From positions 62,001 through 126,000 of the forward strand of contig JAVYTR010000003.1 of NCBI GenBank assembly GCA_038728585.1: 64,000 bases of DNA, written 5' to 3'. The notes under the pieces were generated by a model, which saw only the letters and a list, made by a program, of their open reading frames with translations, was not told where the DNA came from and searched no databases. This DNA comes from Conexivisphaerales archaeon (GTDB taxonomy: Archaea; Thermoproteota; Nitrososphaeria; Conexivisphaerales; DTJL01). Shown piece by piece: positions 13,164 through 16,090 of the stretch (position 1 is the stretch's first letter; each line of letters begins with the position of its first letter). The position numbers and the translations under genes were made by a program.

Positions 13164-13961
13164 TTAATCTGAAGCGACAAATCTGTATATGCTCTTCATC
13201 AGAATAAGTTCGCTGTCCGAAAGAATGAGGGGTTCGCAACCAAGCACAGATAGCGAAAGGCCTGAAGAGTCGCGTTCTATCACAGCATCTACATAGCCTG
13301 TGTATGCAGCATTTGCAGAGGTCACATAGCTGACAGGCCTGTCTGCAAAGAAAGAAAGAGAGCGTATCATTTCCAAGTTCTCGAAGAACTTTAGCGGCAT
13401 GTTTCTGAATCTCTTATCCAAGAGGGGTAAGACAACCTTGTCATTTCTGACCAGATTTCTCGCCTTGGCCGAAGCTATTCTGCTAGCCATGCCAACAGAG
13501 AAACCCAAGCCCCATGAATAGAAATCATCTTCAATCCTGACATCTCCATCGCCATCGAAGTTTGCAATGACAAACCTTGGCCTGAGCAGATAAAGATGAG
13601 GTAACCTTATGCTGAAAGAACGAACCTTTAATCTGAAATTTAAAACGGATGGAAATGCAACTAGAAGAGCAGATGCCAGAAGAGCAGGCAAAGGTCCAGA
13701 TGCCACATAACTGAAGGGCAGAAAGGAAACCAACGTCAGGTCTATCAGGAGAATAGAGAATTTTCTCCGTTTTAGTAGCTTGACCAGATCCTTCGACACT
13801 ATGGCAAAGGGCATAGAGCTGAGCAGAATAGAAAGGAAGAACTGAGAAATTCTGGAGACTGGATTTGGGTCACCTGAAGTCAGGGAAAGAGAGAGCATGA
13901 AGATATAGGTAAAGAAGGAGAGGAGGACTGCGAAGAAGAAGCTACCCACTCTTCCCAGCAA
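13164..13961 (-). CDS. Membrane protein of the pseudo-HerA/RadB-like operon
   Basis: A 265-residue protein with about four N-terminal membrane helices (VGSFFFAVLLSFFTYIFML, FFLSILLSSMPFAIV, FSILLIDLTLVSFLPFSYV, LPALLASALLVAFPSVL). A soluble C-terminal domain of roughly 150 residues follows (RFVIANFDGDGDVRIEDDFY through VLGCEPLILSDSELILM). The C-terminal half recalls the region after the membrane helices of archaeal DUF2070-type proteins, but I cannot confirm this. It begins 9 nt after the RadB-like gene, so it is almost certainly co-transcribed and may anchor that ATPase or its partner to the membrane. Confidence 0.72.
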   Translation of the reverse strand: MLGRVGSFFFAVLLSFFTYIFMLSLSLTSGDPNPVSRISQFFLSILLSSMPFAIVSKDLVKLLKRRKFSILLIDLTLVSFLPFSYVASGPLPALLASALLVAFPSVLNFRLKVRSFSIRLPHLYLLRPRFVIANFDGDGDVRIEDDFYSWGLGFSVGMASRIASAKARNLVRNDKVVLPLLDKRFRNMPLKFFENLEMIRSLSFFADRPVSYVTSANAAYTGYVDAVIERDSSGLSLSVLGCEPLILSDSELILMKSIYRFVASD

Positions 13962-13970
13962 GCCAGACCA

Positions 13971-14981
13971 CTAGTGAAATCCTGTGTCATCGAGCAGGAG
14001 AAGTGCAGCCAATCCATACTCCTCAATCCTCGGATGTCTGTATGCCCATATCAGTCTGTTGTGCTGCTGCATCCTATCCCTGTTGCTGATCGGATAGTCA
14101 GACAACTTGGAAGTGGCAGGCTCCTTCTCGAGATGGAAGACGTATTTGAAATCGTATCCTACAATCAACCCTCCATATGGGTGAGTCCAAGCTGGATTGT
14201 GCGGGTGCACACTTATATGATTCACTGCAAGTATTGGTATCGAGAATCTGCTCGATAGCTTCTGCGCCTGTCCAAGAAGGAAGGCAAACGATGAGGACCT
14301 GGCAGGAAGGTCCTGAGTTCCGATGAAGGTTGCCTTTGCAGGGGCTGAAATGCTGTCATAGATCACAAGCCCTATACCGTTTTCCCTGACAAAATTACCG
14401 ATAGGGGAAAATTCCGGCTCTTTAACGCCTCCCATTCTCAGCCTGAACTCTACCCTTCCCCCTTCAGTGACGTATGTCTCCCCATCTATTCCATGCAGGT
14501 GCATCAGGTCAACGAGACCAGGCTCTTCCAGAAGGTAAATCGAACTGTCATTCTTTTCTGCCACAAGACCGAAAGAGGGGGCTGCAATGCCCACCATCTG
14601 ACTCAACTGAATATCCGAGACCTGTATCTGATACTGAGAAAGCAGATTCCTGAATGCTTCCTTGAGAAGAGCTTCGTTGGCCTTTCTTTTTTTACTGTCG
14701 TCAAACTTCTTTTGAACAGTTACTCTCTGGGTTGAAACCTTCCTTCCGAATCTTCTTGAAAGAGGCTCCGTCCAGTACGGAATGAGACTCTTCTCGTAGC
14801 CCAGTTCTGTATCTACAATTAAAACGTTTGTTGACGTGGCTGCTGAAAGGGCTATCTGATAGCACAGAATACTCTTACCGACAGCCTTTTCACCAAATAT
14901 TTCCACGAGTCCTCCGTCAGGAAGCCCACCGTCAAGAAGCTCGTCCAGTCCAGAAGCTCCAGTCTGCAGCCTTTCTTTCAT
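13971..14981 (-). CDS. RadB/KaiC-like RecA-fold ATPase
   Basis: A 336-residue RecA-family ATPase. The start is typical of RadB/KaiC (TGASGLDELLDGGLPDGGLVEIFG), the Walker A is GEKAVGKS at 30-37, and the Walker B is GLVIYDS at 204-210. PARSSSFAFLLGQAQKLSSR followed by SIPILAVNH is the loop-L2 and following strand region of archaeal recombinases, and PAWTHPYGGLIVGYDFKY matches the ATP-cap region. About 100 residues (80-190) are inserted between the nucleotide fold and Walker B. There is no HhH DNA-binding N-terminus, so it is not RadA. Its ATG overlaps the stop of the upstream pseudo-HerA gene by 4 nt, which implies coupled translation and a shared complex. Confidence 0.82.
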   Translation of the reverse strand: MKERLQTGASGLDELLDGGLPDGGLVEIFGEKAVGKSILCYQIALSAATSTNVLIVDTELGYEKSLIPYWTEPLSRRFGRKVSTQRVTVQKKFDDSKKRKANEALLKEAFRNLLSQYQIQVSDIQLSQMVGIAAPSFGLVAEKNDSSIYLLEEPGLVDLMHLHGIDGETYVTEGGRVEFRLRMGGVKEPEFSPIGNFVRENGIGLVIYDSISAPAKATFIGTQDLPARSSSFAFLLGQAQKLSSRFSIPILAVNHISVHPHNPAWTHPYGGLIVGYDFKYVFHLEKEPATSKLSDYPISNRDRMQQHNRLIWAYRHPRIEEYGLAALLLLDDTGFH

Positions 14982-16090
14982 TCCTCACCACCGCTCATCC
15001 GATTCAGGAATTCTTTGCCATTCTCGGTCAGCTCCAGAACCTTTGACAGATTTTCACCGTTTGAAACAATGGCAAGCCGCCTGAACAGTGCTGTCTCAAG
15101 CGCCAGCTTCAGCTCATCTTCACTGAGCTGACCTGTCAGGTAGGTCATCAGACCTGTTATCGTTGCTCCCTTGTATGACTCGATTGTTTTCAGCAGTGTT
15201 GAAAGTGCAGCATCGCTCACTCTGCTGGGATTTGTTTGCTGGGTATCATGAGAATGAAGAAGCAAGCGAGGACTGGTGACGAGTTCAGGAGCTGCAAATA
15301 CGGTCTTTGAGTTGTAGATGTAGAGAGGCCCTGCTTCTGTAATCTCTGCACCAAAGTTGGGGGAGCCTTCTCCTTGGTTCTGCAGAGCGATTATGGTAGA
15401 ACGACTCATTATTTCAGAGAGTAATTGATTGAATCTGGTTCTCTCCTTCTTCTCCAGATAACTGATCGCTTCCCAGCCAACGATGAAAACGAAACAATCT
15501 TGACTCATAACCATCTTTGACATGCAGGCTAGAGCCAAGGCTATCCTGGCTTCGGCCGAAGGGACCTTCCAGAAGTCAGTGATGAATGAGTGTTCAAGTT
15601 CATTTCTGCGTGAGAAGGGAATCGAAAAAAGTTCCTGGAGCCTCTTCTTGGCCGTTTCCACCCCTTTAGCCTGCTGGCCTTCCATCATGCTTACGATCGC
15701 GAAGGCTCCTCCGGCTCCTTCTGCAGAGGCCAGAGACCTTATTGCTTCTTTCATTGTGTATTCTGTTTCCCTCTCAAGGTCGAAACCAAGAGTGAGGGAA
15801 ACTGCTAGAAGATGCTGGTAAAATTCATCCTCTGAACCATAGGTGAAGATACAGCCTATGACTGATTGCAGGTCAGCCTGTGGCAAGAAGCCATAGAAAT
15901 GAGAAGAACCTCCCATAAGCAGAGATATGACGATCACCTTTTTGCCTCTTCTGAAGAGCTCCCACGCCAGGTTTCTTGCTATTCGTATGCAACGTCTGCC
16001 CCTCAACAGCAGGCCTGAACTGAATGCTTCTTGGCTGAGATAGAGATCAGAACCAGCCTGCAGATAGCCGACAAAGATTCTGTCTTGCAT
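14978..16090 (-). CDS. HerA-like ATPase-fold protein with a degenerate P-loop and C-terminal winged helix
   Basis: A 370-residue protein not obvious from motifs, but it lines up with HerA/DUF87 ATPases. SGLLLRGRRCIRIARN (25-40) stands where a P-loop such as GxxGSGKS should be, followed by LAWELFRRGKKVIVISLL, the expected helix and strand. SFITDFWKVPSAEARIALALACMS (168-191, broken here only by my choice) matches the HerA segment after the insertion. DCFVFIVGWEAISYL (198-212) replaces the acidic Walker B, and STIIALQNQ (231-239) matches the TQRP sensor region. Walker A Lys and Walker B Asp/Glu are both missing. The last 80 residues form a winged helix (SYKGATITGLMTYLTGQLSE). It heads a three-gene operon with a RadB-like ATPase and a membrane protein. 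Confidence 0.68.
   Translation of the reverse strand: MQDRIFVGYLQAGSDLYLSQEAFSSGLLLRGRRCIRIARNLAWELFRRGKKVIVISLLMGGSSHFYGFLPQADLQSVIGCIFTYGSEDEFYQHLLAVSLTLGFDLERETEYTMKEAIRSLASAEGAGGAFAIVSMMEGQQAKGVETAKKRLQELFSIPFSRRNELEHSFITDFWKVPSAEARIALALACMSKMVMSQDCFVFIVGWEAISYLEKKERTRFNQLLSEIMSRSTIIALQNQGEGSPNFGAEITEAGPLYIYNSKTVFAAPELVTSPRLLLHSHDTQQTNPSRVSDAALSTLLKTIESYKGATITGLMTYLTGQLSEDELKLALETALFRRLAIVSNGENLSKVLELTENGKEFLNRMSGGEE

Follow-up and report, generated by a model that had tools for sequence, protein, structure and literature searches.

Introduction

The archaellum core ArlH-ArlI-ArlJ brings together a RecA/KaiC-like ATPase, a second ATPase-fold protein and a polytopic membrane protein in one operon, and pseudo-ATPase partners of RecA-fold ATPases occur in the eukaryotic Rad51 paralogue complexes and in Elongator (Elp4-6). 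To our knowledge, no HerA-clade pseudo-ATPase has been assigned to a RecA-fold ATPase as its partner. HerA itself, which together with TrwB, VirB4 and CedB represents the HerA/DUF87 proteins, is partnered by NurA, Mre11 and Rad50. For the Ced and Ted DNA import systems of Thermoproteota, published accounts present the ATPase as a motor similar to VirB4/HerA, herA-like genes occur near Ted loci, and RadA goes unmentioned (PMC9905601, PMC11868833).

We report here on an operon of three genes (A, B and C) that belongs to deep-branching Nitrososphaeria and is located in a 64,000-nucleotide stretch of archaeal DNA, in the following called the window. The composition of the operon, a HerA family without P-loop beside a Rad51-family ATPase and a transmembrane protein, is well supported, and it is in this composition that the novelty lies: a search of open-access papers returned no description of such an operon. 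Compared to the HerA/DUF87 proteins, A has the same core fold, the same order of strands and helices and, in some relatives, remnants of Walker B, but all members of the A family that were checked lack the P-loop, and A carries an additional C-terminal winged helix. Its partner is a RadA-family ATPase instead, and none of nurA, mre11 and rad50 was recognised next to the loci inspected. The trio has a HerA/VirB4-clade protein and membrane proteins in common with Ced and Ted; it differs by the absent P-loop of A, and no channel gene of the CedA/TedA type was recognised beside the loci inspected. In comparison with ArlH-ArlI-ArlJ, A is of the HerA clade and not of the GspE type, and B is closer to RadA/RadB than to ArlH.

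Layout of the operon

All three genes are located on the minus strand, with an overlap of 4 nt between A and B and a gap of 9 nt between B and C (Table 1). A check of the open reading frames found this arrangement as it had been given in a preliminary description of the window. The operon is flanked by an MFS transporter gene upstream and a histidine phosphatase gene downstream, neither of which recurs as a neighbour in the loci inspected.

Table 1. Genes of the operon and sequence features within them (positions in the window).
Feature	Position	Strand	Remarks
Gene A, HerA-clade protein lacking a P-loop, winged helix at the C-terminus	14978..16090	-	370 aa, ATG
Gene B, RadA/RadB-family ATPase without HhH domain	13971..14981	-	336 aa, ATG
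Gene C, membrane protein	13164..13961	-	265 aa, TTG start
A: degenerate P-loop position, residues 31-38, GRRCIRIA replacing GxxxxGK[ST]	15977..16000	-	
A: C-terminal winged helix, residues 293-370, acidic recognition helix	14981..15214	-	
B: Walker A GEKAVGKS, residues 30-37	14871..14894	-	
B: insertion region, residues 80-195	14397..14744	-	net ~84 aa beyond RadA paralogues
C: four-TM region, residues 9-109	13635..13937	-	
C: soluble C-terminal domain, residues 110-265	13167..13634	-	weakly conserved terminal motif

The three proteins

In a profile-profile comparison A (profile A5) matched 13 archaeal HerA-family proteins from related genomes with 90.9% (E 1e-6). The aligned segments are the strand that follows the P-loop, the helix with "ALALA", and the strands carrying Walker B and "ALQNQ". 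A second profile, A9, independently matched HerA with 96.6%. The AlphaFold model of A (pLDDT 85.7, with 29 relatives in the alignment) was compared to the PDB by Foldseek, where TrwB (E 5e-5), VirB4 (2e-4) and HerA (5e-4) rank first and the top 30 matches consist of TrwB, VirB4, HerA and type IV coupling structures, the leading chains with E 5e-5 to 3e-3. These fold matches are topological, with a TM score of about 0.4 and an rmsd of about 6 Å. Since the HerA profile match and the Foldseek ranking stand against only 0.6% for the RecA-type partner B, A is, as judged from profiles and a predicted structure, a member of the HerA clade. The idea of a degenerate RecA protein was dropped, as both control comparisons, the one with B included, were below 1%.

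The likeness to HerA/DUF87 that had been proposed for A was thereby found again in profile and fold comparison. The proposed alignment over the full length holds for the core segments; the winged helix is real but lies outside the HerA match. That A might be some other alpha/beta protein with a winged helix and unrelated to HerA is very improbable. Its core is without a Pfam match, and a sequence-profile search against the PDB returned winged-helix and chance matches only, Rossmann dehydrogenases at E 0.003-0.01 among them, and did not reach HerA. Against this stand the uniform top 30 of the fold search, the matches obtained from two profiles independently, and EAH- or DAH-like remnants of Walker B in several A relatives.

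The P-loop position of A reads GRRCIRIA in the window and is GRQAGxxAS-like in a large soil group, and the motif GxxxxGK[ST] is absent from every A relative scanned. The Walker B strand reads FIVGWEA compared to IAIEEAH in HerA, with remnants such as TEAHRVF or NDAHRLF kept in a few relatives. The loss of both the Walker A lysine and the acidic Walker B, noted before for A, is evident from these motifs. The winged helix weakly matches domains of the MarR/PadR type. As its recognition helix is acidic (mean charge -1.9), binding of an operator by A is doubtful.

B matches the Pfam families Rad51 (PF08423, E 3e-13, over the cut-off) and KaiC (E 1e-7). Like RadA and RadB it possesses an intact Walker A (GEKAVGKS), the DTE glutamate and Walker B in the order of the Rad51 family, and Walker A remains intact in B across its relatives while those of A have none. 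B is a Rad51-superfamily ATPase. Unlike RadA and RadB it stays below the curated cut-offs, reaching 50.9 bits where 259 are needed for RadA (PRK04301.1 / TIGR02236) and 50.9 bits where 172.4 are needed for RadB (TIGR02237). It is shorter by about 80-100 residues ahead of the core, where RadA has its HhH domain, and L1 reads GTQDLPARS in place of GRENL..RQ, so that the RadA L1 arginine is lost. The distance from Walker A to Walker B amounts to 170-177 aa compared to 91-92 in RadA paralogues. The insertion comprises net about 84 aa within a region of about 115 aa, with a basic N-terminal and an acidic C-terminal half in the relatives of the window's gene. The earlier view of B as an intact RadB/KaiC-like ATPase can be kept for its Walker A and its place in the Rad51 family, but the 100-residue insertion has to be corrected to this net value. 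Without HhH domain, with an altered L1 and with changed Walker A-B spacing, a role as recombinase appears unlikely from the sequence of B.

C contains hydrophobic segments at residues 9-27, 38-56, 68-86 and 91-109, which form two hairpins. The four membrane helices were already known from the preliminary description, which had overlooked the soluble C-terminal domain of about 155 residues. In the relatives of C this domain ends in a weakly conserved motif, P..LS..QL....Y. The loop joining the two hairpins is positively charged, and according to the positive-inside rule the soluble domain is presumably cytoplasmic. A Pfam search with C gave a chance-level match only, and the structure predicted for a C relative of the large soil group (pLDDT 83.7) found nothing below E 0.001 in the PDB. 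In these searches neither sequence nor fold pointed to a channel.

Conservation as a unit

A search of genome contigs with B alone returned 0 loci, and an alignment of close B relatives returned 45, drawn from the GTDB species-genome collection. The groups given for them are Thaumarchaeota, Nitrososphaeria, Nitrososphaerota and Nitrososphaerales; others are named "archaeon" and one "bacterium". The isolates AcS1-13, AcS1-27, SubAcS15-15 and SubAcS15-57 are Gagatemarchaeaceae (group I.1c) genomes (PMC10640624). With profiles trained on part of these loci, 44 of the 45 have A immediately upstream of B in the same orientation, and 42 have C immediately downstream; at the remaining three the contig ends. 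The gene order therefore holds well beyond the window's genome, a point that the preliminary description had left for checking. Overlaps between A and B are mostly 4 nt or 1 nt long.

Of 200 genomes surveyed in the class, 14 have A (E<1e-15), 15 have full-length B (E<1e-60) and 14 have both (Fisher p 1e-20, uncorrected for phylogeny). The cassette is present in three of four genomes of the window's own family and in most genomes of three families, some genomes holding two or three copies; the two largest families of the sample are without full-length B. In one family (f6) ten genomes contain a more divergent B, preceded in 6/6 inspected cases by a gene that matches A over the full length (92.9% by profile), and the third gene there is a short TM protein of 114-124 aa without soluble domain. 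The trees of A and B mirror each other with r 0.98 over 42 loci, including the in-genome paralogues of isolates that carry two cassettes. The flanks are fixed within families, with EF-2 in one group and pyrD-like and gatD/E-like genes, as identified by eye, in another. This conservation speaks for a chromosomal module that is inherited vertically and not for a defence-island set, and the fixed flanks point to a stable chromosomal function.

Some loci deviate from the common form or have additional neighbours. In L045 and L087, both from one lineage of family f3, B and C are kept and no recognisable A lies upstream of B. The third cassette of isolate REEA66 (L095:4892-8018) has A and B in several frames, which may be decay or assembly errors. 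A divergent HTH_45 winged-helix gene and a 2-TM gene lie upstream of A in about 25 soil-lineage loci (e.g. L065:3969-4763, minus strand), and this pair is absent beside the window's cassette. A HerA-like DUF87 gene with intact P-loop lies near the cassette in L065 (8390-9562, minus strand), L068 (8543-9730, minus strand) and six more loci, and in L065 and L068 it faces the cassette downstream of C.

Sister operons

P-loop-less relatives of A also occur in at least seven further Thermoproteota families (f20, f49, f51, f52, f57, f59, f63). By profile they are members of A's own family, with a full-length match of 98.7% (E 2e-16) and a second match of 98.1%. The gene order is here a TM protein (about 205 aa), A, a gene of about 105 aa and a RadA paralogue (L151-L160, L183-L196), often adjoined by a divergent ArsR-like regulator gene. 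All five RadA copies scanned exceed the RadA cut-off PRK04301.1, and the sister paralogues retain the HhH domain and the L1 arginine. In genomes where both were sought, the copy is mostly a second, more divergent one besides the main RadA. The HerA matches L161-L168 were removed as module members, since they have P-loops and no RadA neighbours and represent ordinary HerA.

What both operon forms share is a pseudo-HerA gene that neighbours genes for a Rad51-family ATPase and for a TM protein. The TM proteins showed no detectable homology between the operon forms (profile match 2.7%), and descent of B from the sister RadA paralogues is unsupported, as B groups apart in the RadA-family tree (midpoint-rooted, 228 columns after trimming; the tip L204, probably a wrong-frame artefact, was ignored). 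Because of both observations the likeness of the two forms may be convergent. The gene of about 105 aa was also considered as the origin of the insertion in B and rejected (profile match 0.1%).

Possible function

We tentatively propose, as a reading with somewhat less than an even chance, that the trio is a translationally coupled unit encoding a membrane-anchored heteromeric ATPase, with B as the sole working NTPase and A as a pseudo-ATPase scaffold. We infer that the three proteins form a physical complex, in which C with its two TM hairpins and soluble domain would be the membrane anchor. B, having lost the N-terminal domain and the L1 DNA contact of a recombinase and gained the insertion region, would be the only working NTPase. 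A, which appears to keep the HerA/FtsK-clade fold, perhaps with its ring interface, plus the winged helix, could act as scaffold or adaptor linking B and C. Binding or hydrolysis of ATP by B might then switch or remodel the assembly at the membrane. The preliminary picture, in which a dead HerA serves as scaffold and is joined by a RecA-fold ATPase at the membrane, described the parts fairly; the driving of A by B goes beyond the parts and is something we infer.

As the sister RadA paralogues keep recombinase features, our guess by analogy is that the cargo could be DNA-related housekeeping at the membrane. For the same reason the module may originally have handled DNA at the membrane, and the form in Nitrososphaeria looks rebuilt. 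Extended to the phylum, a pseudo-HerA would hold an ATPase of the RadA family at the membrane; for most lineages this would be a second RadA, dedicated to DNA located there (incoming DNA or chromosome anchoring), and in Nitrososphaeria the RadA partner would have been rebuilt into a non-recombinase switch. We regard this extended reading as doubtful. The operons suggest that ATPases of the recombinase family can, in archaea, operate in membrane complexes alongside a pseudo-ATPase, and the sister operons supply a candidate set of partners for the second RadA that several Thermoproteota lineages possess.

Other functions have to be weighed against the anchored ATPase, and their support decreases from a regulatory module over a DNA transfer device to defence. 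In a membrane-coupled regulatory or signalling module B would be a KaiC/ArlH-like ATP switch, A a winged-helix regulator and C the membrane readout. The winged helix of A, the divergent HTH_45 and 2-TM genes upstream in about 25 loci, the ArsR-like gene beside sister operons and the RadA DNA contacts that B has lost would all fit, but an acidic recognition helix is unusual in operator binding, a known sensing domain is absent, and the window's cassette is without the divergent genes; on balance we consider such a module unlikely. A Ced/Ted- or FtsK-like membrane machine for uptake, transfer or segregation of DNA, in which A would form the ring and B would be the loader or would handle ssDNA, seems less likely still. 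In its favor are the placement of A in the TrwB/VirB4/HerA clade and the sister operons, whose RadA paralogues have kept HhH domain and L1 arginine, yet A without P-loop cannot be a HerA-type motor, C gives no sign of a channel, and a TedA/CedA-like gene was not recognised beside the loci inspected. The DNA translocation suggested earlier finds no support in the window's form, in which A lacks the motor site and has a winged helix with an acidic recognition helix and B lacks both the HhH domain and the L1 arginine.

The earlier suggestion of defence, here as an anti-virus module, is disfavoured and highly improbable. It could draw on the patchy occurrence in the window's own family (three of four genomes) and on the fact that some genomes have the cassette two or three times. 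However, PADLOC models gave no match for A, B or C, no relative was found in viral contigs, housekeeping genes (EF-2; pyrD- and gatD/E-like) are fixed as flanks within families, and most genomes of three families carry the module.

Further RadA-family loci

Two observations were made on RadA-family genes outside the operons. In G000:C6:90106-91833, G002:C51:31194-33275 and G168:C1:1216576-1219017 the main RadA is split within a single frame of 596-849 aa; the split is located at profile position 115, probably near the P-loop, and is probably due to an intein. In the window's family the loci L179:5244-9412, L180:2593-6870 and L182:5499-9493 contain a further RadA paralogue, followed by a RecA-like protein of about 320-360 aa and then by a protein of about 700 aa that by eye resembles a B-family DNA polymerase.
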